In this document: positions 3,224 through 31,420 of the stretch, in pieces
How positions within the stretch are numbered: position 1 is the stretch's first letter
Layout: the number at the start of each line of letters is the position of its first letter
DNA from: a bacterium
GTDB taxonomy: Bacteria; Verrucomicrobiota; Kiritimatiellia; UBA8416
DNA length: 44,109 nucleotides
Direction: 5' to 3'
NCBI GenBank assembly: GCA_020048935.1
Contig: JAIFLS010000146.1
Coordinates: forward strand, 1 to 44,109
Program-made: the position numbers and the translations under genes
Notes under the pieces: generated by a model
The model's input: only the letters and a program-made list of their open reading frames with translations
Database searches by the model: none
What the model was told of the DNA's origin: nothing

Positions 3224-4708
3224 TTACAGGCCAGCCGGCAGGGAGCCTTCCTCGCGGTAGCGATTGAGCTTGTTTCGCAGCGTGCGGATGCTCACACCGA
3301 GCAGATCGGCCGCCTGGTTGCGCTGCCCATCGGTTTTTTCCATGGCGCGCAGGATGGCATGCCGTTCCAGCTCATCCAGGCATAGCGTCGTGTTGGCCGG
3401 GGAGGGGACCGTGCTGTCCGGGGGACATTCGCTCGCTGCCTTGCCTTCGGCTGGAGGAGAATGGGGATCGCTCTGCCTGGCCGGTTCCTGGGTGGCCGAG
3501 TCCACCGGTGTGCAGATGCTGCCGTGCACTTCGGGCGGTAGCATTGCTGGCGTCAGTTCCGGCCCCTTTTCCATGACGCAGAGACGCTCAATCAGGTGCT
3601 CGAGTTCGCGTACGTTGCCAGGCCACATGTATCGGTACAGTATGTCGAGTGTATCCTGGCGGAACCGCAAGCCATCGGTTTTTCCAGTCAGGTTTCGAAG
3701 ATGCCGTTTGAGAAAGTTGTCTGCCAGCATCGGGATGTCCTCTGGTCTTTCGCGCAAGGGCGGCACATGGATGGGGACGACATTGAGCCGGTAGTATAGA
3801 TCCTGCCGGAAGCCGCCCTCGCGTACATAGCTTTGCAAATCGCGGTTCGTGGTGGCAATGATCCGACATTCCGCGCGCAGCGTTCGGCTTCCGCCAACAC
3901 GTTCGAATTCACGCTCCTGAATTACGCGCAGCAGCTTCGCCTGCAGACCGAGTGGCATCTCGCTGATCTCGTCCAGCAGCAACGTCCCGTTGCCCGCGAG
4001 CTCGAAGCGTCCTGCCCGCCGGTTGATCGCCCCGGTGAAGGCTCCCTTCTCATGCCCGAATAGTTCACTATCGGCCAGCGATTCCGGTACGGCTGCGCAG
4101 TTCATGCGCACAAAGGGACGTTTGCGGTATTCCCCGAGTCCGTGGATGGCCTGGGCCACTAATTCCTTACCCGTGCCGCTTTCGCCTGATATCAGTACCG
4201 TCGAGGAAGAGGCGGCGACGCGTTCAATCTGCTCGATCAGCTTTTGCATGGCGACGGCTTGGCCGAGCAAGCGTTTCCCCTTTGGCATCGACCAACCGAG
4301 CTCTTCCTTGAGATAGTCGTTTTGCGCACTGAGCCGCACCCAATCCTTTGCCCGGTTCAGGACGACCTCCACCTGTTCCGGTGAGAAGGGTTTCATGAGG
4401 AAGTCGACCGCTCCCAGTTTCATCGCTTCCACGGCTTGCTCCACGGTCCCAAAGGCGGTGACCATGACCGTCAGGGTCTCGATGCCCGCCTCCTGCTTCC
4501 AGCGCAGCAGGTCCATGCCGCTGAGAACCGGCATTTTGATGTCGACGAAGGCCATGTCGAAGTCGCGTTCTTCCATCAGTTTCTGTGCCTGTGCCCCATT
4601 ACCGGCCTGCACCACTTCAATTCCGGCTCTTGTGAGTGTTTCCACGACGAATTCACGCATCAGTATATCGTCATCGACCACAAGCACGGTTTCAATGCTG
4701 GAGATCAT
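3224..4708 (-). CDS. NtrC-family sigma-54 response regulator (FlrC/FleR type)
   Basis: 494 aa. Domains in order: receiver (about 5-120, phospho-acceptor Asp in FVDIKMPVLSG), AAA+ sigma-54 activator (about 145-380, Walker A GESGTGKE, intact GAFTGA loop, Walker B LLLDE), and a C-terminal Fis-type helix-turn-helix (NQAADLLGVSIRTLRNKLNR). A Pro/Ser-rich linker of about 40 residues separates AAA+ and DNA-binding parts. The start overlaps the upstream kinase stop by four bases (ATGA), so the pair is coupled. By position, directly before flgB, it is the likely activator of the rod/ring operon; FlrC, FleR and FlbD are the functional analogues. Target assignment is inferred. Confidence 0.93.
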   Translation of the reverse strand: MISSIETVLVVDDDILMREFVVETLTRAGIEVVQAGNGAQAQKLMEERDFDMAFVDIKMPVLSGMDLLRWKQEAGIETLTVMVTAFGTVEQAVEAMKLGAVDFLMKPFSPEQVEVVLNRAKDWVRLSAQNDYLKEELGWSMPKGKRLLGQAVAMQKLIEQIERVAASSSTVLISGESGTGKELVAQAIHGLGEYRKRPFVRMNCAAVPESLADSELFGHEKGAFTGAINRRAGRFELAGNGTLLLDEISEMPLGLQAKLLRVIQEREFERVGGSRTLRAECRIIATTNRDLQSYVREGGFRQDLYYRLNVVPIHVPPLRERPEDIPMLADNFLKRHLRNLTGKTDGLRFRQDTLDILYRYMWPGNVRELEHLIERLCVMEKGPELTPAMLPPEVHGSICTPVDSATQEPARQSDPHSPPAEGKAASECPPDSTVPSPANTTLCLDELERHAILRAMEKTDGQRNQAADLLGVSIRTLRNKLNRYREEGSLPAGL

Positions 4709-5982
4709 GCTTCCACTCCTGTTTTGGGTAATTCAACGCTAAAAAGACTGCCTTTCCCGGGTTCGCTGGTGATGTTGATCTCACCACCGTGGATATCGAT
4801 GATCTTGCGGGTGAGCGATAGGCCCAGACCGGTACCGCCTTCCTTCGATGTAAAGAAGGGATCAAACACTTTGGACGCATGCAAGGCGTCCATTCCGCAC
4901 CCGTTGTCGCGCACATGCAGGGTGACCGTGTTGTGACTATCGGTGGCCGATATATGGACGGTGCCGGAGGCGGTGCAGGCCTCAATGGCGTTGATTCCCA
5001 GATTCAGCAGTGCCTGGGTTATCTGGCGGTAATCGCCACGGAATTGTATGTCTGGCTCGGGAGGTTCGATGATGATGCAAACGTGGGTTCTTGTGGCCCG
5101 GTCTACCAGTGTTTCCCGGCAGGATTCGAATACCGCCGCGACGGATGCCTGCGATATCTGCAGCCGCATCGGGCGTGCATAGGTCATTAGGTTGGTGATG
5201 ACATAATTCAGGTTCTGGGCTCCCTCGACGATCCGTTCCGCCAGTCGCAATGGGCCAGGCATGGTTTCCAGATCCCGTCGCAGTAGCCGTGCAAACCCTT
5301 CGATCGTGCCCAAAGGATTGCGAATCTCGTGAGCCACGCTGGCTGCCATCTCGCCCAGGGCGGCAAGCCTTTCCTGGCTTTGAAGGCGTTTTTCCATGCG
5401 GCGGAATTCGGTTACATCACGCAGGTTGCATATCGCACCCAGAATCTTGCCGTCGGGGGCGGTTACCGGGGCAAGGCTCAGCAGGATTCGGCGTGTTTCG
5501 CCCTGCCCATGGCTCGTGGTCCAGGGATGGTCAAGTAATGGCGTGCCGCCTTGGAGTACGCGCTCCAGGTGTGACTCGGACTCCGGCGCCTGCACGATAT
5601 GCGGGAAACAGGCATCCTCGATTTCCGGACGGTTTACTTGCAGCATTCGGCATGCGGCCGAATTACACCGTTCAATGCGTCCGCCCTGGCCGACGACCAA
5701 CAACCCATCGGTAAGGCTTTCAACCACACTTTCCAGCCGGCTGGAGACCTGCCGAAGCGCTTGGTTCGTGATCGTCAACTCGCTGTTACGCTCCTGCAGG
5801 GTCTTGTTGGAGCTGGCAAGGTCAGCTTCAAGCGACCGGTAAGCCTTCTCCAACTGGCGGCTTTGGCGCTCGAATATTTCAAATGCCGACTGCACGGCCG
5901 CCAAGGTACTGTCGTTTTGATTGGCGACCGGAACCGCCGCAGAAGGGGCTAGCATAGGGATGGGAAGGTGAGGGGCCTGCAT
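4705..5982 (-). CDS. Soluble PAS-domain histidine kinase (FlrB/FleS type)
   Basis: 425 aa with no membrane segment. The N-terminal 80 residues are coiled coil (QSRQLEKAYRSLEADLASSN). A PAS domain follows (about 85-190, ESLTDGLLVVGQGGRIERCN), then HisKA with the H-box AASVAHEIRNPLGTIEGF (about 205-270), then HATPase (DNGCGMD, FFTSKEGGTGLGLSL). A cytoplasmic PAS kinase fused translationally to a sigma-54 regulator is the FlrBC/FleSR/AtoSC layout, so it probably senses a flagellar assembly state in the cytoplasm. The ATG has a good AGGAG site. It begins two bases after the small upstream gene. The true signal is unknown. Confidence 0.92.
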   Translation of the reverse strand: MQAPHLPIPMLAPSAAVPVANQNDSTLAAVQSAFEIFERQSRQLEKAYRSLEADLASSNKTLQERNSELTITNQALRQVSSRLESVVESLTDGLLVVGQGGRIERCNSAACRMLQVNRPEIEDACFPHIVQAPESESHLERVLQGGTPLLDHPWTTSHGQGETRRILLSLAPVTAPDGKILGAICNLRDVTEFRRMEKRLQSQERLAALGEMAASVAHEIRNPLGTIEGFARLLRRDLETMPGPLRLAERIVEGAQNLNYVITNLMTYARPMRLQISQASVAAVFESCRETLVDRATRTHVCIIIEPPEPDIQFRGDYRQITQALLNLGINAIEACTASGTVHISATDSHNTVTLHVRDNGCGMDALHASKVFDPFFTSKEGGTGLGLSLTRKIIDIHGGEINITSEPGKGSLFSVELPKTGVEA

Positions 5983-5984
5983 GA

Positions 5985-6296
5985 TTAATGCTCCTGGGGT
6001 ACCGGGGTGTCATCGCCGCCGGCACTGATCCGATATTCACGTTCCTGCAACATCAGTTCTTCCATCGTCACTCCCAGTTCCTGTAGGGCGCAAAGGGTTG
6101 CCGCATTCAGCGGGATCCCGCCGGTGCTTTCGGCCACCTGCCGTAAATGACCAGTTAGCGCATCGGCGTATTGCTCGGCCTGGCGCAATAACGTCGTACG
6201 ATTGCTGTTATCGGCAAGCACGCGGAGCTGCATGTAGATGTCGCGAATGGCTGCTGCCTGTGTCTTTGCATTTCTGATTTCAGTCATTAGTTCCAT
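5985..6296 (-). CDS. Small helical protein of unknown function in flagellar regulatory operon
   Basis: About 103 aa from the ATG at 6296 (MELMTEIRNAKTQAAAIRDI), which has a GGAA site upstream. The track start at 6308 is a TTG directly after the preceding stop with no ribosome site. The protein is predicted almost wholly alpha-helical (RTTLLRQAEQYADALTGHLR) and hydrophilic, with no signal peptide. Such small helical proteins in flagellar operons are often chaperones or regulator partners, but I do not recognise a family. It is tightly packed between the helical-repeat gene and the PAS kinase, so co-expression is certain enough to suggest a role with one of them. Confidence 0.7.
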   Translation of the reverse strand: MELMTEIRNAKTQAAAIRDIYMQLRVLADNSNRTTLLRQAEQYADALTGHLRQVAESTGGIPLNAATLCALQELGVTMEELMLQEREYRISAGGDDTPVPQEH

Positions 6297-6308
6297 GCTG
6301 GGTTCCAA

Positions 6309-8540
6309 TCATAAGGCGGCTGCCCTTGCCCGCAACGAAAGCCGATCTGTCTTTTGGATCCAGTCGCGAAGGGCATCGGCAGAAAGGAGTGTGTCGCCAG
6401 CCGGTGCCTGCTTCTCGGATATGGCTTGCCGATCCATCCACGCCATGACGGTTGCCGCCGGTTCCTTCGCGATCAGTCGCGTAAGCGTCTGTATCCGATA
6501 TTGTTCCAGTGGCAATTGCGCTCGCCAATACGAATCATTTTCCATTTGCGAAAGCAGTTGGTCGATACGCTCGTAGGCCTCGCTCTGTAGCAACTGGTCC
6601 ATTGCGGCATCAGCCGTGGCCAGCATCAGTGCTTTCGGCGGTTTGGCGGGCGCTGGGCGAGGGTGTTCTGTCGGTTGTGTCGTCAGTGCCGTTAAATCGG
6701 GAACCAGAATTTCAAATAGAGTTGACAGCAAGGCGTCGCCAGAAGGCCCGCAGGTTTGCCGCCAGCGCCTGATAGCTTCCTTGTGCTGGCCTTGCCGCAT
6801 GGCAATCGCAGCCCATAACGGTGTCGATTCAGGCCAGATGCCGGCCCACTCGGAATGGGTGTTCAGCGTCCGTAGTATCTGATCGGCATCGCGGTCGCGC
6901 TCTATGCTTAACAGCACGCGCGCTTGTCCCAGCATGGCTTGAGCCATGGTCGGGCTCTTGTCGCCCGTTTCTTGTGTATGTAAGCTTCCCAGCAGGATTG
7001 CATGTCTGTAGTACGTTTCGGCGGCGGCAGGCAGCGAGAGTTCCTCAAGCCGTTGGGCGGTGATCAGAAGGCCCTCGGGACAGCGTTCATCCTGCGGGAA
7101 TCGCATCGTGGCGTCGATCGCGCTTCCCACCAGGCCGGCGGTGGCCTTCGGATCCTTGGCCAGCGCTTTTAAAAGGCTGTGGCGGGCATGGGTGTCCAAT
7201 TGTTTGTCCGTGTTTAGCGATATCAGTTTGTAGAGATACCGGACCTGTGCATCGTGATTACCGCGTCTGGCGGCCAGATCAGCTTGCACTTCAAATTCCC
7301 TGGCTGGATTCGTCGCCGTGCTGGCTTGCGCCTGCGCCGCTGCCAGATAGCGTTCTGTTCGATCCAGTTCATCACGTCCTATTGCCGTTCTTGCGGCACG
7401 AACCAGGATGTTGTAGGTCTCTGCTTGTCCAGGCTTCAGCATGTCTAACTGTTGATCAAGCGTTGAAAGGAGTTGGCCTACCCGCGCTGTATCGGTTGTG
7501 GCTGAGATTTCATGGTCCAGATCGATCAGTGCTGTTTCCTGTAGATGCGAGTCGGCGAGCATCATCAATCGGGCGGCGGCGGCATCTTCGATGGATCGCT
7601 CCTGCCGCAGCAAGGCAAGCAGACGCTGCGCGGCCTGCCGTCGGCCGGGGGCAGAGGTGTTGTAGGCCGCTCGCTGAAGTGCGGGAATGGCCTGATTCAT
7701 GTTCTTGCTCCTGAAGGCGATTTGGGCTATGATGACCAGTGATTCCTGTTTGATCTGCGAGTTGTTGCTTTGCGCCAATGCGTTGGCGTTCTCGGTCAGT
7801 TGCTGCCGGATCTTCTCCAGTTTCTCACTGGGCGTTGCCCCTTCGAAATGCGAGCTAAGCGCATTGAACCATTTTGTGTTTGTGTATATCCGCCAAAGCA
7901 CTCTGGTCTCGCAGTGCAATGCCTTGATTTGCTGTTCCCCGATCGCGGAAAATGCCTTGAGCGCATCAAGGCTTGCATAGGCCGGGGCGGCGTACCCCAA
8001 GTCAAAGAAGACCTGGAATTCGAGCAGGTTCAAGTCGAAGGGCATTTTGCCCTGGTCGCGAACCCTCGCGAGAATGCGATTCGCATGCTGTAGGGCTTGA
8101 TGGTCGCGCAGTTTGCTGGCCAGTTGTAGGAAAACCGTTGCCGTGTCGACCGCGCTGCAACCATCGATATCCTGTTTTGCAAGCACCGTCGCGTAATTGG
8201 CTGCCATGCGATGACGCTGCCAGGCGGGGCGCCAGTTGTCTTCTTTTAGCAGGAATTTCGTCATGGCCATAATGGCGGTGTTCTTCTGTTTGGGCGTTTC
8301 TGCAATCTCAATGGCATCACTGAAGAAGATGAATGCCATGAGCGGATCCTTCGCCTTGTCGCGTTCCTCTGCCCACCGCAGCATCAGAATGTCGGCGGGA
8401 GGCAGCTCTTGGCTGATAAAATGATGGACCATCAATCCGGTCATCGTGGCGGTGAACGCCAGTCCGATGCCCATCAGGGCCATTGTAAGAAACAGTGCTG
8501 AGCCTTGCCTTGCGCGAGAATGCCTATTGTGTGCGGTCAT
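6309..8540 (-). CDS. Membrane-anchored TPR/helical-repeat protein, unknown function
   Basis: 743 aa. One N-terminal membrane segment at about residues 14-38 (ALFLTMALMGIGLAFTATMT) preceded by a basic stretch, so the bulk should be periplasmic. The rest is alpha-helical and reads like degenerate tetratricopeptide repeats (AAETYYRHAILLGS, AEQ-type helices, GQHKEAIRRWRQ). A proline-rich break near residue 625 (PTEHPRPAPAKPPK) separates a C-terminal helical part. It overlaps the upstream REC/STAS gene by 17 nt and abuts the small gene below. I know no flagellar protein of this layout. A scaffold or sensor in the cell envelope is possible; this is inference. Confidence 0.75.
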   Translation of the reverse strand: MTAHNRHSRARQGSALFLTMALMGIGLAFTATMTGLMVHHFISQELPPADILMLRWAEERDKAKDPLMAFIFFSDAIEIAETPKQKNTAIMAMTKFLLKEDNWRPAWQRHRMAANYATVLAKQDIDGCSAVDTATVFLQLASKLRDHQALQHANRILARVRDQGKMPFDLNLLEFQVFFDLGYAAPAYASLDALKAFSAIGEQQIKALHCETRVLWRIYTNTKWFNALSSHFEGATPSEKLEKIRQQLTENANALAQSNNSQIKQESLVIIAQIAFRSKNMNQAIPALQRAAYNTSAPGRRQAAQRLLALLRQERSIEDAAAARLMMLADSHLQETALIDLDHEISATTDTARVGQLLSTLDQQLDMLKPGQAETYNILVRAARTAIGRDELDRTERYLAAAQAQASTATNPAREFEVQADLAARRGNHDAQVRYLYKLISLNTDKQLDTHARHSLLKALAKDPKATAGLVGSAIDATMRFPQDERCPEGLLITAQRLEELSLPAAAETYYRHAILLGSLHTQETGDKSPTMAQAMLGQARVLLSIERDRDADQILRTLNTHSEWAGIWPESTPLWAAIAMRQGQHKEAIRRWRQTCGPSGDALLSTLFEILVPDLTALTTQPTEHPRPAPAKPPKALMLATADAAMDQLLQSEAYERIDQLLSQMENDSYWRAQLPLEQYRIQTLTRLIAKEPAATVMAWMDRQAISEKQAPAGDTLLSADALRDWIQKTDRLSLRARAAAL

Positions 8541-9336
8541 GCAAATCCATTCCTTCCCGTCGGCTGGATACCTGAATGACGCTTAAAAGCTGCGATCGCT
8601 CGGCATTACCTGTCAGGCGCTGACTTTGAATGCGTAGCGTGTCCGGGCTGTCGATAATATCGACAAATGTGCCTGCGCCTGCTTCGAAATGTCTCCTGAT
8701 CGCCGGCGTCTGCGCCAGGATGCATAGTCGGCCGCCTTGCGCCGAGAGCCATCCTGCCCATGCGCACAGGCTGCGCATGGCGGTCATGTCGGCCTGCGTT
8801 GCGGGGGTCGTTTCAAGCGCAATCCATTTCTCATCGCGGGCGGCACGCAGCAAGCGGGCGGCGTTGCGGGCCGTCAGCGTCCCGCGAAGACGGACGCGAC
8901 GGAAGCGGCCGATTCGCCGCGCGTTGCCGCTGCCAGTTGCCGGCGTATGGGCGGCTGCCTTGAAAAGCATCTTCAGGGTACTTTGCAATTGCTCGGCCTG
9001 TACCGGTTTCTGAATAACGCTGCTGATTGCCAGCGCTTGCCGACATTCCTCGGAGACGCATTCGGTCTCTGCCGTCATACATACGACAGGGGTTTGATAG
9101 CCATTGCTGCGCATCTTCGCGATTACGTCGGTACCATAGCCATCGGGAAGACGATAATCCATCAGTACCATTTGCGGCCCGAGACGTTCCCAGCTCGCTT
9201 CGGCCTCGCTGGCGCTTTCTGCAACATTAATGCTGCATGCCCCAGGAAGCCGTTCCAGGGTTCTGCGCAAGGTGGCGGCCAGCAGCGGGTCGTCCTCCAC
9301 CAGCAGGATGACGATACCGAACGCATCAGAAGTCAT
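8524..9336 (-). CDS. Response regulator receiver domain fused to STAS-like domain
   Basis: 270 aa. Residues 8-125 form a receiver domain: acidic pocket LLVEDD, phospho-acceptor Asp in VLMDYRLPDGYG, Thr in CMTAETE, Lys in IQKPVQ. The C-terminal half (about 145-240) has the beta/alpha pattern of a STAS (anti-sigma-factor antagonist) domain, including WLSAQGGRLCILAQTPAIRR followed by a glycine turn. STAS is my reading of the fold, not a certain match. There is no DNA-binding domain, so output is likely by protein-protein binding. AAGGAG ribosome site before the ATG. It overlaps the LysM gene by 11 nt and the helical-repeat gene by 17 nt. Confidence 0.72.
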   Translation of the reverse strand: MTSDAFGIVILLVEDDPLLAATLRRTLERLPGACSINVAESASEAEASWERLGPQMVLMDYRLPDGYGTDVIAKMRSNGYQTPVVCMTAETECVSEECRQALAISSVIQKPVQAEQLQSTLKMLFKAAAHTPATGSGNARRIGRFRRVRLRGTLTARNAARLLRAARDEKWIALETTPATQADMTAMRSLCAWAGWLSAQGGRLCILAQTPAIRRHFEAGAGTFVDIIDSPDTLRIQSQRLTGNAERSQLLSVIQVSSRREGMDLHDRTQ

Positions 9337-9865
9337 AACTGGCTCCTTCTGTGTAGCGTGGTATGATCAGCACGGTTCCGGCGGCCAGTACGGCAGAGGG
9401 GCTTATGCCGTTGACTTGCTGTATCCATTTGGCCAGGTCCTTGTTGCCGTAGACCATCGGGTTGGCGGCAATGCTCTCGAGGGTGTCGCCAGTCTGGACC
9501 TCGTAATATTCGAATGCTCCACTGCGCAAAAGACTCAATAAATGGTCTTTTTTGTTGATTTCCCTCCGACTTTCCTCCAGTTGCTTGCCGAGGCTCTCGA
9601 TCTGCGCATTCTGTTCATCAAGTCGGGTGTTCAAGAGAGTAACTTCATCCTGGGTTTGGCTTAACTGTGCGGTTGTGGCCTGTAGCTGCACGTTCAGGTG
9701 CGTGACCTCGTCAAGCAGGGCTTGCGCTTGAAGGGCACGCCGCTCCAGTGCGTTAAGACTGCTGGTGTCTGACGCATTGGCCGAGGCCCAGAGTACGACG
9801 GCGAGACTCAGGATTGCAACGCTGGGTACGATCCATTGACGGCTACGTTTTCCGGTTCCATTCAT
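9326..9865 (-). CDS. Membrane-anchored coiled-coil LysM protein
   Basis: 179 aa from the ATG at 9865, which has an AAGGA site; the TTG at 9898 in the track has none. Layout: N-terminal membrane segment (WIVPSVAILSLAVVLWASA), long coiled coil (about 35-110), C-terminal LysM domain (YYEVQTGDTLESIAANP to GTVLIIPRY). LysM binds peptidoglycan, so the protein should span from inner membrane to cell wall. It sits between the NtrC-type regulator and the REC/STAS gene. A role in anchoring or sensing at the flagellar base or cell pole is possible (FimV-like logic), but there is no direct evidence. Confidence 0.82.
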   Translation of the reverse strand: MNGTGKRSRQWIVPSVAILSLAVVLWASANASDTSSLNALERRALQAQALLDEVTHLNVQLQATTAQLSQTQDEVTLLNTRLDEQNAQIESLGKQLEESRREINKKDHLLSLLRSGAFEYYEVQTGDTLESIAANPMVYGNKDLAKWIQQVNGISPSAVLAAGTVLIIPRYTEGASYDF

Positions 9866-9977
9866 ATCGATATTCCTTGCGATGTCGAGCGGAGTCAATC
9901 ATGGTCTCGATATGCTAGCAGGGGCTGTGCCGCAGATCGTGAGCGCTTGCGGTGTTTACACGGCAAAACTCGATCAA

Positions 9978-11354
9978 TCAGACGGTTATGCTGTGTTCCT
10001 TGATTTTTCTCAGCAAGGAACTGCGATGGATATTTAGAATTTCGGCCGCTTGGCCGCGATGTCCGTTCACGTCGTGCAGGACCCGCGTAATCAACAGCCG
10101 CTCGCATTCGGCAAGGCTCATGGACGGAATCACAGAGGTCTGTCCGGTGGGGGCCGGTGGATTGGACGGTATTGCTTGCTTGGTGTTTGGAATGGCAAGA
10201 TCCTTGACATCAATCTCGTTGCCTGTACATAGAATGACGCCGCGTTCGATCGAATGGCGCAGCTCGCGAACGTTCCCCGGCCAGTCATAAGCGCAAAGGG
10301 CATCCATGGCCGCCGCTGTAAATCCGCTAAGGTGGCCGCCGGTTGCTTTCTTGTGCTGATTGAGGCACTGGTTAGCAAGCATCGGAATGCTTTCCGGGTG
10401 CTCGCGAAGTGGTGGCAGAGTCAGGGGAAAAACCGACAAACGGTAATAGAGATCCTCACGGAACGTGCCATCCTTTACCATGTCCTGTAGATTGCGGCAG
10501 GTAGCAGCGACGATGCGCACATCCACCTGAATGACACGGCTCCCGCCTAAACGGCGGAATTGCTTGTCCTCGATCACTTTTAGCAGTTTCGCTTGCAGGG
10601 CGGGGGCCATGTCGCCGATCTCATCGAGGAATACCGTGCCGCCATCGGCGATCTCAAGTAAGCCGGGTTTGCTGGCTTTGGCATCGGTGAAGGCTCCTTT
10701 CTCATAACCGAAAACCTCGCTTTCCATCAATGGCCCCGGAATCGCCGAGCAATTGATGTCGACGAACGGCTTCTCGGCACGTGCGCTGAGACGGTGCACG
10801 GCGGATGCCATCATCCCTTTTCCCGTTCCGCTTTCCCCTAAGAGCAGCACCGTAGTGTCGGGGAAGGTGGCAATGCGCTGTACTTTTGTAAAGAGATTAC
10901 GCAGGGCGCCGCCGCCAATCATCTCGTCGAGCTGCCAGACGTCGCCACCGGAACCGGTCGATAGCCGCGCGAGTCCCTCTACGCGCTCTTCAAGGTTGAC
11001 CGCTTTTTCCACATTCCGGATGATTTTCTCGAGTTGCTCGTTTTCGTAAGGCTTCGGTAAGTAGTCGTAGGCCCCGTTGCGAATGGCTTGAATGGCTGAT
11101 CTGACATCGCTGTGGCCGGTTACAAAAACAACGTAAGCTCGTTTTGATAAGCCGTTGATCTCTTCAAGGAAATGGAAACTGTCGCCGTCGGGTAGTCGCC
11201 GGTCAAGAAAGATCAGCTTGAATTGATTCTCCTTCAGCCGACTGCGCGCGTCGCTTAACGAATCGCAGGCTTTGACGTCGTGGCCTTTGCGCTTTAAAAG
11301 GTCAAACATGACCTTGCGCTGGATTTCGTCATCTTCAACTATTAGAATATCCAT
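9978..11354 (-). CDS. NtrC-family sigma-54 response regulator with GAFTDA loop
   Basis: 458 aa from the ATG at 11354 (MDILIVEDDEIQRKVMFDLL); the longer ORF in the track runs backward through the kinase gene. Domains: receiver (acceptor Asp in LIFLDRRLPDGDSF), AAA+ (Walker A GESGTGKG, LFLDEIGDM-type Walker B as VFLDEIGDM), C-terminal Fis-type helix-turn-helix (GQAAEILNIHRSSLLRKIK). The sigma-54 contact loop reads GAFTDA rather than GAFTGA, a variant found in a subset of these activators. TAATG overlap with the kinase stop couples the two. Together with the kinase it has a sigma-70-type promoter, so it may stand at the top of the flagellar hierarchy. Confidence 0.92.
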   Translation of the reverse strand: MDILIVEDDEIQRKVMFDLLKRKGHDVKACDSLSDARSRLKENQFKLIFLDRRLPDGDSFHFLEEINGLSKRAYVVFVTGHSDVRSAIQAIRNGAYDYLPKPYENEQLEKIIRNVEKAVNLEERVEGLARLSTGSGGDVWQLDEMIGGGALRNLFTKVQRIATFPDTTVLLLGESGTGKGMMASAVHRLSARAEKPFVDINCSAIPGPLMESEVFGYEKGAFTDAKASKPGLLEIADGGTVFLDEIGDMAPALQAKLLKVIEDKQFRRLGGSRVIQVDVRIVAATCRNLQDMVKDGTFREDLYYRLSVFPLTLPPLREHPESIPMLANQCLNQHKKATGGHLSGFTAAAMDALCAYDWPGNVRELRHSIERGVILCTGNEIDVKDLAIPNTKQAIPSNPPAPTGQTSVIPSMSLAECERLLITRVLHDVNGHRGQAAEILNIHRSSLLRKIKEHSITV

Positions 11355-12061
11355 TATGGCGGTGCACTTTCTGCGGCATCGGACGGCGGCATGGGCATGG
11401 TCGGGCAAGATAACGTCACGGTCCATTCGTTCGTTCGGCATGGCGCTAGTTCCGCCGCGCAATCGCCGCCGGTGAGGCGGGCCAGCCGTTGCGCCAACGT
11501 AAGTCCCAAGCCGAGGTGGCGCGGTCGCGTTGTGTAAAACGGGAGGAACGCCTGCTCTCGCAGGGAGGCATCGATGCCAGGCCCAGAGTCGGACACGGTC
11601 CACGTTATGCAGCCCTCGTTCGCCTGCAGGAGCAGGCCGACAATACCTCGCGGAGCAGCCTCGCAGGCGTTGGTCAGGAGTTCTTGCAAGGCGATGCGCA
11701 TAATCGACGGCGCTGCTCCTGCCGCGTCCCCCTGTTGTCGGATCTCTGCATTCGGGAAACGGCGGGCTACGGCCGCCATGGCGTCAGCTGTTATGTCGGA
11801 TACGATCTCTGGCTGAATCGCGGGGGCGCGTTCCCAGAACAGGCTGAATCGATTAGCCATATCGCTTAGCGAATCACACTCCCGGAGCATTAAGGGAAAG
11901 TACTCGCGTAGATCTGGAGCAAGGGTACTTCCTGCATCGGATTCGATGAGGTTCACGGCTCCGCTGATGCCTGAGGCGATGTTCCGGAGACGGTGTCTCA
12001 GCACATGCGACATGCGCTCCAAGTCGTCGGTGCTTAAATGGGGTGGAGTAACTGAAATCAT
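11354..12061 (-). CDS. Small soluble histidine kinase
   Basis: 235 aa from the ATG at 12061. The TTG at 12097 used by the ORF track is the -35 box of the promoter, so it cannot be the start of a transcript from that promoter. The H-box is atypical, MSHVLRHRLRNIASGISG, with His23 the probable phosphorylated residue. The HATPase part has an N-box (LQELLTNACEA), DSGPGID and HLGLGLTLAQ. There is no membrane segment and no sensor domain. It partners the overlapping NtrC-type regulator (TAATG). What it senses is unknown; a partner protein is likely needed. Confidence 0.88.
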   Translation of the reverse strand: MISVTPPHLSTDDLERMSHVLRHRLRNIASGISGAVNLIESDAGSTLAPDLREYFPLMLRECDSLSDMANRFSLFWERAPAIQPEIVSDITADAMAAVARRFPNAEIRQQGDAAGAAPSIMRIALQELLTNACEAAPRGIVGLLLQANEGCITWTVSDSGPGIDASLREQAFLPFYTTRPRHLGLGLTLAQRLARLTGGDCAAELAPCRTNEWTVTLSCPTMPMPPSDAAESAPP

Positions 12062-12068
12062 TACTTTT

Positions 12069-12097
12069 CTTATACATCTCGCGTCGGTCGGTGTCAA
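12069..12097 (-). promoter_or_regulatory. Sigma-70-type promoter for kinase/regulator pair
   Basis: Minus strand TTGACA (12097-12092), 17-nt spacer, TATAAG (12074-12069): 11 of 12 consensus bases at ideal spacing. The ATG at 12061 begins eight bases after the -10 box, so the expected start point falls at or one base before the start codon, with no room for a ribosome site. Confidence 0.75.
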
Positions 12098-12128: not shown

Positions 12129-14042
12129 TCACAGTGTGGCGTGCCATAGACACAAGTTCACGATCGGCCATAGTTTCATAGGGTGGACCGGCATGCTGCC
12201 GTTCAGCCAGGCATCAATCGCGGTCGGATTGAATAGCGCGTGCCGCAGCGGCGATGTAGCAATTGCCTCCTTGATCATGGGCTTCATCCACGTGTCCATC
12301 CATTCAAAAACAGGCACCGGGAAGCTCATCTTCGGGCGCTGCAGGATCGACGTCGGGACCGAATCGGTATAGGCGCGGCGCAGCAGCCGTTTGGATTCGA
12401 TCAGATCCTGTTGTACAATCTCCATCACGTTCAGCCCCTGCGCGGCAAGCGCGCCAGCCGGTTGCCGCCAGTCCAGGCGGTAGGTGTCCGGCAGCGAGAA
12501 TGCAAAATCAACCAGCCGGTGATCGGTAAACGGGACGCGCACCTCGACGGATGCGGCCATGGAGCTGGAGTCCACCCGCAGGAGCAAGCCTTCGAGGTTG
12601 ACGCGCAGGTGGGCAAGCATGATGCGGTCCAGGGTGGATGCATTCGGGTGGCGGCTGTAGAGTTGCTGATAGAAGGCTCGGATGGCATGGTCGTTGTGCA
12701 GGTTGGCCGTGATATCCGGATGCATCCAGAGTTGCTTCTCCGGCGTGGACATCCAGGTGTTCAGCAGCAGGTGCTGGGTGGCCAGATCCGGCAGGTGCGC
12801 CTGTCCATAGCCGCGCAGTAGCGCCTGATCGGTCGCATTCATACCTGACTCAGGCTTTGTTGAGCGCGAAGCCCGGTCGAAGTCATGGGCCGCGAAATAG
12901 GCAATCGTGTAACCGCCGAAGATCTCGTCGGCACCTTCGCCGCTCAAGGCCACCGTGTATTCCTCGCGCAGTGCTTTGGAAAGCATGTAGATCGGCACTT
13001 CGTTAGGGGTGGTGAGAGGGAGACCGTTCTGGCGTATCAAGAAATCCCACAATGCGGGGTAATCGGCCGAGTCAAGCGTGATTTGGCGGCACTTCATGCG
13101 GTAGGCGTCAGCCGCCTCTTTCACAAACGGGAATTCGTTGAACCCGGGTTGCGCGTAACCCACGTTATAGGCGTGAAAGTGGTTGTCCGTGAGGGTGCTG
13201 GCCTGTTCTGCAATAATGGTTGAATCCAGGCCGCCGCTGAGAAAACCGCCCAGCGGAACGTCGCTGATCAGGCGCAGCCGTACCGCCTCCTTGATCAAGT
13301 CGCGCGTTTCCTCGGCCGCCGTTTCCAGTGAGAGCAGTGATTTGTCCTGCGGTGCAGGGCAGGATGGTGCCCAATAGCAGCCGCCATGCTGCCCGCCGCT
13401 CGCGTCGATGCGCATCCAGTGGCCGGGTTCCAGCAAGTGCACGCCGCTGAGCAGGGTATCCTGCCCGAGATTAACCCGTATGGTGGATAGGTAGTGGGAG
13501 GCGGCCGAAGCGTCAAGTGCGGGTTTGTCCGGCAGCAGGGCCAGCAAGGCGCGCATCGACGAGGCAAAACAGAGCGTCTTGCGTTGCTGTGCCCAGAATA
13601 GCGGCTTTACGCCCAGTCGGTCGCGGGCCAGGAAGAGCGTGCGTTGGCGGGGGTCGTAAATGGCGAAGGCAAACATGCCGAGCAGGCGATCCAGGCATGC
13701 CGTGTCCCATTCCAGAAAGGCGTGCAGCAGGACTTCTGTGTCGGAATGGGTTTGGAATGCGTGGCCCCTTGCTTGCAGTTCTTCCCGCAGTTCCGGGTAA
13801 TTGTAAATCTCGCCGTTAAAAACGATCACCGCGCCGGTTTGCGGATCCACCAGCGGTTGGTGGCCGCCGCCGATATCGATAATGGCCAGTCGTCGGTGCG
13901 CAAGCCCCATTCGGTCTGTGTGGAATCGCCCCTGATCGTCCGGGCCGCGCAAGGCCATGCAATCGGCCGCATCCCGCAGCCGCGGCAGCCACTGCTCGCA
14001 AGGGAGAGGGGTGGGGGAGGTGTAGCCGGCAATGCCGCACAT
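12129..14042 (-). CDS. asnB: Asparagine synthetase B-type glutamine amidotransferase
   Basis: 637 aa, close to the usual length. The N-terminal Ntn-type glutaminase starts MCGIAGY with catalytic Cys2 and has RGPDDQG and VFNGEIYNY motifs. The C-terminal synthetase domain has the PP-loop SGGLDST (about residue 270) and SGEGADEIFGGY. The family transfers ammonia from glutamine to an ATP-activated carboxylate; members in surface-sugar clusters amidate sugars rather than aspartate. AAGGGAG ribosome site; 15 nt after fliD, so it is in the same transcript. Location between fliD and the flagellar regulators hints at flagellin or sugar modification, but plain asparagine synthesis cannot be excluded. 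Confidence 0.9.
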   Translation of the reverse strand: MCGIAGYTSPTPLPCEQWLPRLRDAADCMALRGPDDQGRFHTDRMGLAHRRLAIIDIGGGHQPLVDPQTGAVIVFNGEIYNYPELREELQARGHAFQTHSDTEVLLHAFLEWDTACLDRLLGMFAFAIYDPRQRTLFLARDRLGVKPLFWAQQRKTLCFASSMRALLALLPDKPALDASAASHYLSTIRVNLGQDTLLSGVHLLEPGHWMRIDASGGQHGGCYWAPSCPAPQDKSLLSLETAAEETRDLIKEAVRLRLISDVPLGGFLSGGLDSTIIAEQASTLTDNHFHAYNVGYAQPGFNEFPFVKEAADAYRMKCRQITLDSADYPALWDFLIRQNGLPLTTPNEVPIYMLSKALREEYTVALSGEGADEIFGGYTIAYFAAHDFDRASRSTKPESGMNATDQALLRGYGQAHLPDLATQHLLLNTWMSTPEKQLWMHPDITANLHNDHAIRAFYQQLYSRHPNASTLDRIMLAHLRVNLEGLLLRVDSSSMAASVEVRVPFTDHRLVDFAFSLPDTYRLDWRQPAGALAAQGLNVMEIVQQDLIESKRLLRRAYTDSVPTSILQRPKMSFPVPVFEWMDTWMKPMIKEAIATSPLRHALFNPTAIDAWLNGSMPVHPMKLWPIVNLCLWHATL

Positions 14043-14057: not shown

Positions 14058-15530
14058 CTAGTTGTTAGAACCGCCAATTTGCCCGATCAGGTAATCAAAC
14101 CCCGACTTCATTTTGCCGATGGCTTCATCCATGGCTCCGAACTGGCGCCAGAGCATAGTCTCTTTCATTTCCAATTCCCGTGTCAGACGTTCAATTTGAT
14201 CGTCCTGTCGCGAGATCTCATCATTGATATTCTCGATGCCGATGTCAATCCAGCCGTCGAGATCCGAACTGAAGCTACGGGTGGACTCATACATCGTGAG
14301 GGCGATGCCGCCTTCTCGTGTACCAACCGTGGTCTCGGAGGTGACGCCACGGAACAGGTTCTCAACCTCGTCCGGATACTGCTCAAGCATCGCGTCGAGG
14401 CGCTCCTCGTCGATAATTGCCAGCCTGTTCAATTCCCCCTCGGTCCAGATGCCGATGTGTTGAAGCGAATCCATGATTCCATCCGCCCCGTTGTATTGGT
14501 AGCTGGCGTTTTCAGCCGTATGCGTTGTGTTCATCATCTGACCTGCAAGCGAACGCAGCTTGTAGGTGATTTCACGCATCATGCTGTTGTCCTGTAGCAG
14601 GCCCGGAACGGGATTGGATGGATCACTGCGATCCCAGGTCCCGTAGAACTCATTGACCTCTGCCGCCGTGTTGTAAGCATCTATAAAGGTGTTGATCGCT
14701 TCCTTGATGGCAGCATTGTCACGGCCGACCGTGATTTCGCTGTATCCGGTACTGTACAAATTCAGTGTCACGCCTTCGACAACATCGGCCAGGCCGGTGT
14801 TGGATGAACGCGTGACGGCGGCACCATTGACCGTGAATTCCGCATCCTGAGCGGATAGGAGTTCGTTGGAGGGACTTCCAGAAGCATCCAGAATGCCGAG
14901 GCTCTCTAGCGGGGTGCCGGTCGTGTCGGAGAGGGAAATGGAGTCGGAGCCGGTGTTGACGCGCTGAAGCACGAGTCGATTGTCAAGGATGGTGGCGGTG
15001 ACCTGGTCGTTTCCCGGCATTGAACTGGTCGCGGCGTTGATCTTGTCGCGCAGTGAGGCTAGGGTCTCGGTGTTGCTGATGGAAAAGGTTTGCCCACCGA
15101 TGGCGAACTGGTCGCCGAGACTGATGCCGGCAATATTGGTCAACAGCGTTGAGGTCGTCACGGGTACACCCCCCGTATCGGTCATGCCGGTAGCGGATGC
15201 AATCGTTTGTGCACGAGCCAGATGCGTGACTTCTACTGTATAGGTGGCACTGGCGGTATTGGCGGCGGTGGTGGCGGTAGCCACGGAGGCATTGGTGCTG
15301 GTGGACGCCATTTTTCGCCAGGTATCCATCCAGCGCAGTGAATCAGAGGCCTCGGTCAGGCTTGCAAGGTTTTTCTTGACGTCGATCCAGGCCGTGATTT
15401 TGTCGTTCCGCAGGGTCTTGGCTTCCCGGACGGACTCCAGACGGCGCCCTTCGACTTCCATGATCTTGGCGATCGTGCCGCCTACATCAAAGCCGGACCC
15501 CAGTCCACTGATTCGGAATTCTGTGCTCAT
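14058..15530 (-). CDS. fliD: Flagellar filament cap protein FliD
   Basis: 490 aa. FliD caps the growing filament and folds flagellin subunits. The start, MSTEFRISGLGSGFDVGGTI, is the FliD N-terminal signature, and the helix after it (VREAKTLRNDKITAWIDVKK) fits. The C-terminal domain ends in a long coiled coil (DDQIERLTRELEMKETMLWR then GAMDEAIGKMKS), also characteristic. The middle is Ser/Thr rich and variable. No Shine-Dalgarno sequence is evident before the ATG and a sigma-54-like promoter ends about 14 nt upstream. It heads the long minus-strand transcript containing asnB and the regulators. Confidence 0.95.
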   Translation of the reverse strand: MSTEFRISGLGSGFDVGGTIAKIMEVEGRRLESVREAKTLRNDKITAWIDVKKNLASLTEASDSLRWMDTWRKMASTSTNASVATATTAANTASATYTVEVTHLARAQTIASATGMTDTGGVPVTTSTLLTNIAGISLGDQFAIGGQTFSISNTETLASLRDKINAATSSMPGNDQVTATILDNRLVLQRVNTGSDSISLSDTTGTPLESLGILDASGSPSNELLSAQDAEFTVNGAAVTRSSNTGLADVVEGVTLNLYSTGYSEITVGRDNAAIKEAINTFIDAYNTAAEVNEFYGTWDRSDPSNPVPGLLQDNSMMREITYKLRSLAGQMMNTTHTAENASYQYNGADGIMDSLQHIGIWTEGELNRLAIIDEERLDAMLEQYPDEVENLFRGVTSETTVGTREGGIALTMYESTRSFSSDLDGWIDIGIENINDEISRQDDQIERLTRELEMKETMLWRQFGAMDEAIGKMKSGFDYLIGQIGGSNN

Positions 15531-15679: not shown

Positions 15680-16615
15680 CTACCCGATCAGTTGCATAAC
15701 GCTCTGCGGCAAGGCATTTGCCTGTGCCAGCATCGCCGTGCCGACCTGCGTCAGGATCTGATGCTTCATGAACTGAGTGGATTCCAGCGCCATATCCACG
15801 TCGCGGATCGCGCTTTCGGCACCCATCATGTTCTCCTGATACGTACGCACACCTTCCAGGGAGTGGCCCAGACGGCTGCCTTCGGCACCCATCACCGCGC
15901 GCTTGTTGCTGACATGGTCGATGGCCAACACCAGCACGGCGGTCGCCTTCATGGCTGCATCCTGCGTCTCGATGCTGATGCCGCCGGTGTTCAACCCTGT
16001 CGCATTGGTTCCCCCGTTGAGCACGGACCCCCAGGTGACATTAGCCGAGGGACCGATAGTGAACTGTCCGCACGAGAAAGCGATCGGTACTGTCCCGATC
16101 GGGTCTGTACTTCCACGGTGCAGGGAAATCGATGCCCCGCAGAATAACTGTCCCGGGTCGGCACCGACCTGGGTGATCAAACCGGAATTACCCTGGAACA
16201 GGTTAGTCGTGTTGAACTTGCCACGGGCCAGGCTGCCAGTTGTGATGCGAATGATCTCCGCCTGCATATTCTCAAATTCAACCTGCAGGTTGGCGCGGTC
16301 GACCGAGGTTTTCGTGCCGTCATTGGCCGCCACGGCCAATTCGTTCATCCGGTGCAGCATGTCGTGGATCTTCTGCATCCACGAATCGGCCGTGCGCATG
16401 AACGCAATGCTGTTCTGGATGTTCTGAGCCGCCATACCCGAATTACGAACCTGCGAACGCATACGCTCGCTCATGGCCAATCCGGCCGGATCATCGGCTG
16501 CTGTCTTGATGCGCAAGCCGCTGGAGAGCTTGCTCATCGAGTTTCGCATATTATTTACGCTGGATGAATAGTTGACCCACACGCCGAACGCTGGAACGTT
16601 ATTAAATACCTGCAT
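15680..16615 (-). CDS. fliC: Flagellin A
   Basis: 311 aa from the ATG at 16615, which has an excellent AAGGAGG ribosome site; the in-frame extension in the track is untranslated leader. Conserved flagellin ends are present: SKLSSGLRIKTAADDPAGLA at the start and IRDVDMALESTQFMKHQILT at the end. The central part is short (no large D2/D3 domains) and contains two cysteines (LFCGAS and FSCGQF), unusual for a filament protein. The same length and same cysteines occur in flagellin B. It faces away from fliW/csrA and has its own terminator. Confidence 0.96.
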   Translation of the reverse strand: MQVFNNVPAFGVWVNYSSSVNNMRNSMSKLSSGLRIKTAADDPAGLAMSERMRSQVRNSGMAAQNIQNSIAFMRTADSWMQKIHDMLHRMNELAVAANDGTKTSVDRANLQVEFENMQAEIIRITTGSLARGKFNTTNLFQGNSGLITQVGADPGQLFCGASISLHRGSTDPIGTVPIAFSCGQFTIGPSANVTWGSVLNGGTNATGLNTGGISIETQDAAMKATAVLVLAIDHVSNKRAVMGAEGSRLGHSLEGVRTYQENMMGAESAIRDVDMALESTQFMKHQILTQVGTAMLAQANALPQSVMQLIG

Positions 16616-16830
16616 GACCTTCCTCCTTGATGTTGTTCTTGTCTTTTTTTGTTCGTCTAACAGAGAATGCATCCATGCTTTCTCCTTTACTGGTTTGCAA
16701 CCCATCCCGTTTTGCTGGTGACTCCTGCTGCAGGATTGCATGCAGCGTCATTGTCCCCTCGCACACTATTCTTTCGCTGCCACCTCCCTCCTTCTTCTCT
16801 TTGGTCCTCGTTTCAAAGCTCTTCGTCGAT
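16616..16830 (-). promoter_or_regulatory. Long leader (5' UTR) of flagellin A
   Basis: About 215 nt between the candidate FliA promoter and the flagellin A ATG hold no convincing gene. On the minus strand it carries a GCTGCA/TGCAGC hairpin (around 16726-16745), a weak GCA-TGGA-TGC hairpin with GGA in the loop near 16670, and the AAGGAGG ribosome site. A post-transcriptional control region, perhaps for CsrA, is plausible; the sites are weaker than those before flagellin B. Confidence 0.45.
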
Positions 16831-16864: not shown

Positions 16865-16990
16865 AGAAAACGAAACAAAAAACACTTGATCGTTCGTTCA
16901 TGGAGCAAATATTGCCGTTGGTGGTGAGGGAGGAGGGTATATCAGGAAACTATTGCCTTTAAAGAGGCGCGAGTACCGCGGTTTGAGCCG

Positions 16991-17006
16991 TGGCACCGGC
17001 ATTGCT
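16991..17006 (+). promoter_or_regulatory. Sigma-54 (-24/-12) promoter for fliW-csrA
   Basis: TGGCACCGGCATTGCT, with GG/GC doublets 10 nt apart and the full TGGCAC and TTGCT boxes. Expected start about 17017, giving a leader of roughly 78 nt to the fliW ATG at 17095. It may also drive csrA and flagellin B, since no other promoter is obvious before them. Confidence 0.85.
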
Positions 17007-17094
17007 ATATGGATGCTGTCGCGTTTCGCTGGCCGGAGGCGGGGCGCGGCAGGCATCAGCTAAGGCAGTATCTGGCGAAAAAGGGGACATAGAC

Positions 17095-17634
17095 ATGAAT
17101 AAAAATAATGACGATGCGTTTGTGGTCAAGCCTTACTCGCGGCTCGTTTCGTTGACGATACGTCCCGAGCATGTTTTTCATTTCCCGCAAGGGCTGCCGG
17201 CCTTTGACGGTTTCAAGAACTATGTTTTCACGATCAAACCAGATACCAGCCCGTTTGTCTTCATGCAGTCCATTGAGCCGGCAGGGCTTTCGTTTGTCTG
17301 TGTGGATCCGTTCCTGATCCATCCTGAGTATGCACCACGGATCGGCCCCGCAGATCAGGAGATCCTGCGTCTTGAGCGTCCGGAGGCCCTGATGCTGATG
17401 TGCATCGTGACGGTGCGGTCTGATGCACGCGACACCACCGCAAACCTACAGGGACCGCTGGTGATCAATATTGAGAATTCGATCGGCAAGCAGATCCTGT
17501 GTGATGGCCAGTCGTATCCCGTCCGCTACCGTATATGGGATGCCATCGGGACAATCGCGGATGAGATGGTGGCTGAATCCCGACCAGAACGATTTGACGG
17601 GATGCAGGGAACGATGAAACATGCATTTGCGTAA
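17095..17634 (+). CDS. fliW: Flagellar assembly factor FliW
   Basis: 179 aa from the ATG at 17095, with AGGGG upstream. The track starts at a GTG (16990) that overlaps the sigma-54 promoter and is not used. FliW binds flagellin and, when free, binds CsrA and blocks its translational repression. Family features: FPQGLPAFDGFKNYVF near the start, then LSFVCVDPFLIHPEY, and ANLQGPLVINIENSIGKQIL near the end. It is followed 72 nt later by csrA and then flagellin B, which is the full FliW/CsrA/flagellin circuit in one place. Confidence 0.95.
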   Translation: MNKNNDDAFVVKPYSRLVSLTIRPEHVFHFPQGLPAFDGFKNYVFTIKPDTSPFVFMQSIEPAGLSFVCVDPFLIHPEYAPRIGPADQEILRLERPEALMLMCIVTVRSDARDTTANLQGPLVINIENSIGKQILCDGQSYPVRYRIWDAIGTIADEMVAESRPERFDGMQGTMKHAFA

Positions 17635-18040: not shown

Positions 18041-18077
18041 GAAATACCGGATGTTCGGTGATGATTGTCAAATAAAT

Positions 18078-18091
18078 GGGCAAGGATGCCC
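18078..18091 (+). promoter_or_regulatory. Candidate CsrA-binding hairpin 2 in flagellin B leader
   Basis: GGGCAAGGATGCCC: a 4-bp GC stem with AAGGAT in a hexaloop, a close match to the known CsrA hairpin. A third GGA lies in the ribosome site AAGGAGGA (18108-18115), so hairpin plus ribosome site form the two-site arrangement seen in other flagellin leaders. Confidence 0.7.
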
Positions 18092-18120
18092 GGAAAACAA
18101 GAAAATCAAGGAGGATAGAG

Positions 18121-19056
18121 ATGCAGGTTTATAATAACGTTCCCGCTTTTGGTGTGTGGGTCAATTACTCCGCCAGCGTGCAGAATATGCGCGATTCGAT
18201 GGGAAAGCTTTCCAGCGGTCTGCGTATCAAGACGGCGGCAGATGATCCGGCTGGTCTGGCAATCAGTGAGCGTATGCGTTCACAGATTCGCAACTCGGGC
18301 ATGGCGGCTCAGAACATCCAGAACAGCATTGCGTTCATGCGCACGGCCGATTCGTGGATGCAGAAGATCCATGACATGCTGCACCGGATGAACGAACTGG
18401 CTGTCTCGTCGAATGACGGGACGAAAACCCAGGTCGACCGCGCCAATCTGCAGGTTGAATTCGAGAACATGCAGGCGGAGATCATCCGCATCACGACTGG
18501 CAGCCTGGCCCGCGGCAAGTTCAACACGGCTAACCTGTTCCAGGATAATGCCGGTTTGATCACCCAGGTCGGTGCCGATCCGGGACAGTTGTTCTGCGGG
18601 GCATCGCTTTCCCTGCACCGCGCGAGCAACGCCGAAATCGGGAGCGCACCGATCGCCTTCTCGTGCGGGCAGTTCACAATCGGTCCTTCGGTTACGGTAA
18701 CCTGGGGGTCTGTGCTCAACGGGGGAACGAATGCGACAGGGACCTTCAACGGCGGCATCAGCATCGAGACGCAGGATGCAGCCATGAAGTCGATCGCAGT
18801 GCTGAAGCTGGCAATCGACCATGTCAGCAACAAGCGCGCAGTACTCGGGGCAGAGGCCAGCCGTCTGAATCACTCCCTGGAAGGTGTCCGCACCTATCAG
18901 GAGAACATGATGGGTGCCGAGAGCCAGATCCGCGACGTGGATATGGCGCTGGAGTCCACCAAGTTCATGAAGTACCAGATCCTGACGCAGGTGGGTACCG
19001 CGATGCTGGCGCAGGCCAATGCCTTGCCTCAGAGCGTGATGCAGTTGATCGGATAA
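18121..19056 (+). CDS. fliC: Flagellin B
   Basis: 311 aa from the ATG at 18121, directly after AAGGAGGA. Same length and layout as flagellin A, with conserved ends (GKLSSGLRIKTAADDPAGLA; IRDVDMALESTKFMKYQILT). The middle differs at scattered positions but keeps both cysteines (LFCGAS, FSCGQF). A stretch of about 96 nt (18301-18396) is identical to flagellin A except for one base, far above the surrounding identity. It follows csrA by 135 nt and ends in its own terminator. Major filament subunit, probably glycosylated given the nearby pse genes. Confidence 0.96.
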   Translation: MQVYNNVPAFGVWVNYSASVQNMRDSMGKLSSGLRIKTAADDPAGLAISERMRSQIRNSGMAAQNIQNSIAFMRTADSWMQKIHDMLHRMNELAVSSNDGTKTQVDRANLQVEFENMQAEIIRITTGSLARGKFNTANLFQDNAGLITQVGADPGQLFCGASLSLHRASNAEIGSAPIAFSCGQFTIGPSVTVTWGSVLNGGTNATGTFNGGISIETQDAAMKSIAVLKLAIDHVSNKRAVLGAEASRLNHSLEGVRTYQENMMGAESQIRDVDMALESTKFMKYQILTQVGTAMLAQANALPQSVMQLIG

Positions 19057-19126: not shown

Positions 19127-19597
19127 ATGACAACGGAAAAACGGGTGGACACCATAGAGGTTAACTCCTTTGAGGAGTACACGCTGTACTCGCTTGATCA
19201 ATCGTCCGGTGCCATTCTTGGCATGATGGATCGCAGCAAGCAGATCGCCTCGCAATGGCCCGATCTGGCGTCGATGTCCTGTCTGCCAGGGTTATGCAAG
19301 GATGTGGCGGCGTTGTCGAGCTACCAGCACTCCCTGAATGTGGCGGTCGGTGACTTTGATGGGGACGCAGGCGGCTCCTGGCTGCGAGCCCGGGACGCGT
19401 TGCAGGCAGTAATGAACGCCTTACAGGATTCGATAAACATCAATGATCCGGATGTTATCAAGCAGATTTTCGGCTTTGCCTTGCCGGGGGCGTTGAATGA
19501 TTTCATGATCGCGATCCCCGGCCTGAAACAACATGTCGCGGGGATGATCAGCGAGGTTCAGCCCGACGTTGTCGCGGGCAATAGCGAAGGGGTCTGA
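19127..19597 (+). CDS. Hypothetical protein before Maf-like glycosyltransferase
   Basis: 156 aa, ATG preceded by an AAAGGA-type site. I do not recognise the family. It is acidic, mainly helical, with no signal peptide or membrane span; EEYTLYSLDQSSGAILGMMD and FGFALPGALNDFMIAIPGLK are distinctive stretches. The stop overlaps the start of the Maf-like gene by one base (TGATG), so the two are translated together. This suggests a helper of the glycosyltransferase or a flagellin-binding factor, which is inference. It is the first gene after the flagellin B terminator; no clear promoter was found. Confidence 0.75.
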   Translation: MTTEKRVDTIEVNSFEEYTLYSLDQSSGAILGMMDRSKQIASQWPDLASMSCLPGLCKDVAALSSYQHSLNVAVGDFDGDAGGSWLRARDALQAVMNALQDSININDPDVIKQIFGFALPGALNDFMIAIPGLKQHVAGMISEVQPDVVAGNSEGV

Positions 19598-31353: not shown

Positions 31354-31369
31354 TGGCACGCATATTGCA
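31354..31369 (+). promoter_or_regulatory. Sigma-54 (-24/-12) promoter of rpoN itself
   Basis: TGGCACGCATATTGCA matches TGGCACG-N4-TTGCW at every defined position, with 10 nt between doublets. Expected start about 31380, about 41 nt before the rpoN ATG. AT-rich DNA upstream (31,300-31,350) would suit activator binding or IHF-type bending. Confidence 0.88.
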
Positions 31370-31420
31370 TTGGTAATCGTCAGCGAAGTGTTGTTAATTA
31401 CTCTTTGATTGGCGGGAACC

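Follow-up and report, generated by a model that had tools for sequence, protein, structure and literature searches.

A conserved LysM-receiver-TPR gene module linked to flagella in Kiritimatiellia, with a possible role in a peptidoglycan-tied motor scaffold

In the flagellar region of a Kiritimatiellia contig, genes for a LysM protein, a receiver protein, a TPR protein and a small helical protein lie together, raising the question of whether the four form a single unit, whether that unit belongs to the flagellum and what it might contribute there. The window, a stretch of 44,109 nucleotides, is one whole contig of a genome that is 69% complete. All four open reading frames are on the minus strand (Table 1), which reads in the order HK2-NtrC2, -24/-12 site, LysM, REC-STAS, TPR, small, HK1, NtrC1, flgB, flgC, fliE, fliF. 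An initial annotation of this DNA had described the genes as packed with overlaps of 11 and 17 nt, and this is exact in the ORF coordinates, LysM overlapping REC by 11 nt and REC overlapping TPR by 17 nt. Its placement of the module between two sigma-54 kinase/regulator pairs is likewise correct, with HK2/NtrC2 upstream, HK1/NtrC1 downstream, and REC, sigma-54 AAA+ and HTH_8 domains in both regulators. The small gene abuts TPR and is 2 nt from HK1, which overlaps NtrC1 by 4 nt. Chance reading frames can be discounted because orthologues are conserved at 15–54% identity.

Table 1. Positions of the module and its neighbours in the window, and of FlgY/MotE-like E-ring candidates in Kiritimatiellia fli clusters
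Feature	Position	Strand	Remarks
NtrC1: REC-AAA+(sigma-54)-HTH_8 regulator	3224..4708	-	directly before flgB
HK1: PAS-HisKA-HATPase kinase	4705..5982	-	no evident membrane segment
Small helical protein, after TPR	5985..6296	-	ATG start; 6308 if TTG
TPR protein, 743 aa	6309..8540	-	predicted inner-membrane-anchored (N-in) periplasmic superhelix
Receiver protein	8524..9336	-	REC + STAS-like domain + conserved ERxxLL tail
LysM protein	9326..9865	-	ATG start; probable signal peptide, coiled coil, C-terminal LysM; conserved FEYYEV...VYGD...IPRF
Sigma-54-type -24/-12 site CGGCACAGCCCCTGCT	9917..9932	-	52 nt 5' of LysM ATG; score 13.8 of 20
NtrC2: REC-AAA+(sigma-54)-HTH_8 regulator	9978..11354	-	upstream of LysM
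HK2: minimal kinase	11354..12097	-	no recognised sensor domain
FlgY/MotE-like E-ring candidate	L010:14400-14999
FlgY/MotE-like E-ring candidate	L089:7529-8137
FlgY/MotE-like E-ring candidate	L094:2551-3228
FlgY/MotE-like E-ring candidate	L095:5026-5640
FlgY/MotE-like E-ring candidate	L050:2711-3349
FlgY/MotE-like E-ring candidate	L051:12125-12766

Other genes of the window were recorded in passing. An asparagine-synthetase-like gene (12129-14042, minus strand) is situated inside the flagellar region, between a fliD-like gene (14058-15530) and HK2. Two very similar flagellin genes are divergent (15680-16741, minus; 18076-19056, plus), with a fliW-like gene between them (16990-17634). An MptE-like/Maf-type protein (19597-21417, plus) and a block resembling nonulosonic acid (NeuA/PseG/PseI-type) synthesis genes (32823-36856, plus) probably serve flagellin glycosylation.

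Profiles for TPR, LysM and REC-STAS were searched against 193 Kiritimatiellia genomes, with fliF as the flagellar marker; fliF is present in 15 of these and missing from 178. Each of the three families occurs in the same 14 of the 15 fliF-positive genomes and in none of the 178 others. In those 14 genomes the TPR profile scores at least 190 bits (at most 35 elsewhere), LysM at least 190 bits (next best 52) and REC-STAS at least 171 bits (the next, at 92, being a match to REC only). Fisher's exact P for the co-occurrence of TPR and fliF is 2e-20, a value that ignores relatedness and is inflated, since the fliF-positive genomes represent 9 genera. The lone exception, G068, is a MAG of approximately 780 contigs with a LysM-profile fragment at a contig end and nothing more of the module. 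G151 was left out of the LysM and REC-STAS profiles, yet scores 204 and 172 bits respectively. The suggestion that the four genes constitute one conserved, flagellum-linked module is upheld by this distribution; homologues scattered independently of flagella were looked for in the Kiritimatiellia profile searches and did not appear, and the link to flagella is near certain. The three families are, moreover, practical flagellar markers, near-perfect within Kiritimatiellia. A contig scan with a single TPR protein gave no matches, and the weak TPR matches (25-46 bits) seen in many genomes are generic TPR proteins, except for two true members, G254 and G283.

The LysM alignment was used to name relatives, namely Pontiellaceae, Kiritimatiellae MAGs and a MAG labelled Lentisphaerae GWF2_57_35. 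Of the 14 Kiritimatiellia module genomes, 13 retain the order LysM-REC-STAS-TPR, and HK1 adjoins TPR or the small gene in most gene orders. In G151, LysM-REC-STAS and TPR are found on separate contigs, where fliW-, csrA- and flagellin-like genes directly precede TPR and a fliW-like gene directly precedes LysM. A flagellin gene, as read from the sequence, directly precedes LysM in Pontiellaceae (L042-L045, L047), where the triplet is kept although HK1 is missing and the NtrC1 counterpart (e.g. L043:6303-6923) consists of REC and HTH only, having lost AAA+. Pontiella agarivorans encodes a complete set of flagellar genes, yet flagella were not observed on it and it is reported to be non-motile (PMC10880615); hence any function of the module is putative even in culture.

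A phylum sample of 289 genomes contains 21 genomes with FliF outside the class, most of which are without the module. However, the order LysM-REC-TPR recurs in three more distant lineages, G254, G283 and G275, and LysM-domain matches in the other flagellated relatives outside the class are generic. Among the genomes searched, the module is confined to Kiritimatiellia that are flagellated and to a few relatives. G283 has a Pfam-confirmed fliS downstream of the module, and FliF was not found in this MAG, which is 89% complete. G275 was detected with profiles from which it had been excluded (TPR 85 bits, LysM 67 bits); its LysM-REC-TPR-small genes form an isolated operon on a 3.66-Mb contig, approximately 126 kb from fliF, near ExbB/TolQ-like genes and with no adjacent kinase or NtrC. 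This location, and the frequency of LysM and TPR proteins in wall maintenance, would suit a general envelope or cell-wall maintenance operon that hitch-hikes with flagellar genes, but such an operon is extremely improbable, being already contradicted within the class by the absence of the module from all 178 FliF-negative genomes.

The middle protein of G254, G283 and G275 is a receiver alone, 150-172 aa long and without STAS. Its ERxxLL/ERxxLF tail is kept, whereas in Kiritimatiellia the tail follows STAS. Since three distant lineages carry the receiver without STAS, the common core is LysM, receiver and TPR, and STAS is a Kiritimatiellia variant; its position between receiver and tail would reflect either a gain in Kiritimatiellia or a loss elsewhere. 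A STAS-like domain present at this place in one class and absent in others offers a natural experiment on how a receiver gains an output. A candidate origin for the tail, the leftover first helix of the Fis/HTH_8 domain of an NtrC regulator, was rejected, its scores equalling those of random segments (mean -4.8 versus -5.2).

In the window protein, Response_reg is matched at E=6e-19, and the receiver pocket (acid pocket, phospho-Asp and Lys) is intact, with D15, D60 and K110 invariant in alignments A5 and A9. The STAS_2 match (E=3e-4) is below the curated cutoff. About half of the members give STAS or STAS_2 matches, likewise below the cutoff, and STAS_2 is recognised at E<=0.1 in 6 of 13 orthologues. 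An AlphaFold model (pLDDT 83.7) shows two alpha/beta domains followed by a helical tail, and the STAS call depends on Pfam and this predicted fold because REC domains dominate the Foldseek output. Structure prediction rejected neither the STAS fold nor the repeat fold of the TPR protein (pLDDT 83.8). The initial view of REC/STAS as a cytoplasmic switch survives insofar as the protein is predicted to be inside the cell, but STAS is not essential to it, given the three lineages that lack it. The predicted STAS-like fold and the STAS matches could also indicate partner-switching, in which REC-STAS would be an anti-sigma-factor antagonist and phosphorylation of REC would free a sigma factor. This is highly improbable: the Asp-Ser/Thr phospho-acceptor of SpoIIAA-type STAS domains is not conserved (the alignment columns vary), the STAS part is degenerate in Pontiellaceae besides being absent from the three other lineages, and an adjacent gene for an anti-sigma kinase or PP2C is absent.

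The TPR protein is modelled as an all-helical solenoid of approximately 37 helices and has TPR Pfam matches in its orthologues. A single N-terminal hydrophobic stretch, with positive charge on its N-side in most orthologues, leaves a short cytoplasmic tail; the predicted arrangement of the protein is a periplasmic superhelix anchored in the membrane. This agrees with its initial description as a 743-aa membrane-anchored helical-repeat protein, and both it and the LysM protein are predicted to be outside, as first proposed. Among the top 50 PDB chains found by Foldseek, 9hmf_K is the only bacterial one (rank 15, E 6.5e-6, TM 0.26), the others being eukaryotic TPR proteins or scaffolds. From its length and description we take 9hmf_K to be Campylobacter PflA; the match may reflect merely a long TPR superhelix, and is compatible with kinship rather than proof of it. 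When PDB sequences were searched with the TPR profile, designed and generic TPR chains matched and PflA was not among them.

The LysM domain is recognised by Pfam at E=6e-7 in the window protein. The membrane anchor first attributed to the LysM protein is doubtful and, judging from sequence, suits the TPR protein instead, for the hydrophobic N-terminus of the LysM protein is more like a cleavable signal peptide, closed in several orthologues by A-x-A (judged by eye). The small helical protein recurs at its position although its sequence conservation is poor; it has no Pfam match, and against the PDB it finds only designed helical bundles and weak chance matches. Its identification as a FlgN/FliT chaperone found no support, there being no FlgN/FliT Pfam match at E<=10. 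A separate FlgN-like protein is encoded in the window at 28481-28870.

Regulation was approached through the pattern NGGCA[TC]N6TGCN within 150 nt upstream of LysM. A -24/-12 site precedes LysM in 11 of 15 loci, compared with 2% of random windows from the same loci; some of these loci had supplied the pattern, which makes the binomial P optimistic, although L090 and L091, both unseen, are positive. In L007 the same site stands at the same distance upstream of LysM, and 5 of the 11 sites are so near the start of LysM that they would leave the transcript hardly any leader. The site is absent in four of five Pontiellaceae cases. Only sites conserved upstream of LysM were used because a window-wide scan for sigma-54 sites barely exceeds its shuffles (37 sites against 15-31). 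The gene for sigma-54 itself, rpoN, lies in the flagellar region (31354-32959, plus strand), preceded at 55 nt by a near-perfect -24/-12 site, TGGCACGCATATTGCA, which suggests that rpoN is autoregulated.

As reviewed recently (PMC13023049), a periplasmic TPR protein is paired with an E-ring protein in several phyla, as in FlgY-PflA, MotE-MotC/MotK and FlbB-FlcB; MotK has an AMIN domain that binds peptidoglycan, and MgtE_N detects homologues of the E-ring proteins. A gene encoding a TM segment, a coiled coil and MgtE_N is present in all six Kiritimatiellia fli clusters examined (Table 1), adjoining fliJ in L010 and L089; all six FlgY/MotE-like members match MgtE_N at E<=0.1, the best at 1.2e-5. 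As a separate observation, G001 has two consecutive MotB-like genes after a motA-like gene (L089:1714-3239).

The reading we favour, with about even confidence, is that the module amounts to a motor scaffold tied to peptidoglycan and provided with a receiver switch in the cytoplasm, and that its genes comprise a sigma-54-controlled flagellar accessory operon. The TPR protein, its N-terminus in the inner membrane, would be a periplasmic spoke of the scaffold, parallel to PflA, MotC/MotK and FlcB of other phyla, and would dock on an E-ring that surrounds the MS-ring and consists of the FlgY-like protein. The spoke would be tied to peptidoglycan by the exported LysM coiled-coil protein, a counterpart in trans of the AMIN domain that MotK carries in cis, and the small helical protein could be an adaptor or chaperone. 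If an NtrC-type regulator activates the -24/-12 site before LysM, scaffold and basal body would be made simultaneously. More tentatively, the receiver might be phosphorylated by HK1 or HK2 and switch through its conserved tail, together with the STAS-like domain in Kiritimatiellia, either informing the HK1/NtrC1 step of flagellar expression of the state of the scaffold or basal body, or exerting a direct effect on the motor. The receiver is the least explained part of the module, its role being conjectural, and it counts against this reading that a pure scaffold needs no receiver. A wall-anchored TPR scaffold directly controlled by a dedicated receiver, such that phosphorylation of REC(-STAS) sets assembly or torque and links envelope state to motor output, is rather improbable.

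Two further explanations dispense with the scaffold. In the first, LysM and TPR would monitor the wall or the basal body as it grows, and sigma-54 flagellar genes would be gated by a signal from the receiver to HK1/NtrC1 (or HK2/NtrC2), with no structural role in the motor. The position of the module between two kinase/activator pairs, the overlapping LysM, REC and TPR frames and the invariant receiver pocket all accord with such a checkpoint, and input in trans is plausible because HK1 lacks an obvious transmembrane sensor and HK2 a recognised sensor domain. It is unlikely nonetheless, though worth entertaining: the short cytoplasmic tail of TPR gives the signal no obvious path across the membrane, the G275 operon has no kinase or NtrC beside it, and Pontiellaceae retain the triplet in spite of their missing HK1 and reduced NtrC1. 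The initial annotation had proposed cell-wall sensing or flagellar placement; sensing retains some plausibility, but pairing a motor scaffold with an E-ring protein gives the better fit.

Placement or number control, the second explanation, would make the module a FimV/HubP-like landmark, with LysM outside, a TPR-like part and recruitment to the pole. FimV/HubP combines LysM and TPR elements, and both are present here, but on separate proteins, with TPR predicted outside rather than in the cytoplasm, and the Pfam search of window proteins found no FimV/HubP domain. FlhF-like proteins (at least 124 bits) occur in the three relatives and, within the class, in nine genomes with the module. Six genomes have the module without FlhF, namely five Pontiellaceae, with SRP-GTPase-like matches of only ~77 bits, and G151, with less; three of the six are so incomplete that single absences carry little weight. 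Cultured Pontiella is, furthermore, spherical (PMC10880615). Placement as the main role is accordingly not supported, and we consider it improbable.

Should the scaffold reading be correct, the E-ring/TPR-spoke plan would also hold on the Kiritimatiellia side of the PVC group, where the literature searched yielded no motor study, and would there include a new link to peptidoglycan through a separate LysM protein and a signalling protein added to the motor scaffold. The earlier assertion that no known flagellar system has this set stands, none having been found in the published literature searched. The module shares a predicted STAS-like fold with the antagonists SpoIIAA, RsbV and RsbR, but here STAS is fused after a receiver, its phospho-acceptor Ser/Thr is not conserved, and it is missing in lineages that keep the rest of the module. 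With FimV/HubP it shares LysM and TPR-type helical parts linked to polar motility; FimV/HubP, however, is one protein with a periplasmic LysM, a TM segment and a cytoplasmic FimV C-terminal TPR region, whereas here there are two proteins and the TPR is predicted to be periplasmic. FlgS/FlgR, FlrB/FlrC and FleS/FleR resemble HK1/NtrC1, which stands beside flgB, in the NtrC domain plan, and rpoN is in the window, but here an envelope module lies between two kinase/NtrC pairs, no sensor is recognised in HK2 and the Pontiellaceae NtrC1 is without AAA+.

The pairs PflA/FlgY (Campylobacter), MotC/MotE (Sinorhizobium), MotK/MotE (Cereibacter) and FlcB/FlbB (Borrelia) have in common with the present system a long periplasmic protein, mostly TPR, in a flagellated genome, and a FlgY-like TM/coiled-coil/MgtE_N protein, encoded here in the fli cluster. 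A receiver protein is in the operon here and none is described for those pairs. PflA has an N-terminal beta-sandwich where the module TPR protein has a membrane anchor, and their sequence likeness is that of generic TPR. A partner for peptidoglycan attachment is a further likeness, MotK possessing AMIN, but the putative one here, LysM, is carried on a separate protein.
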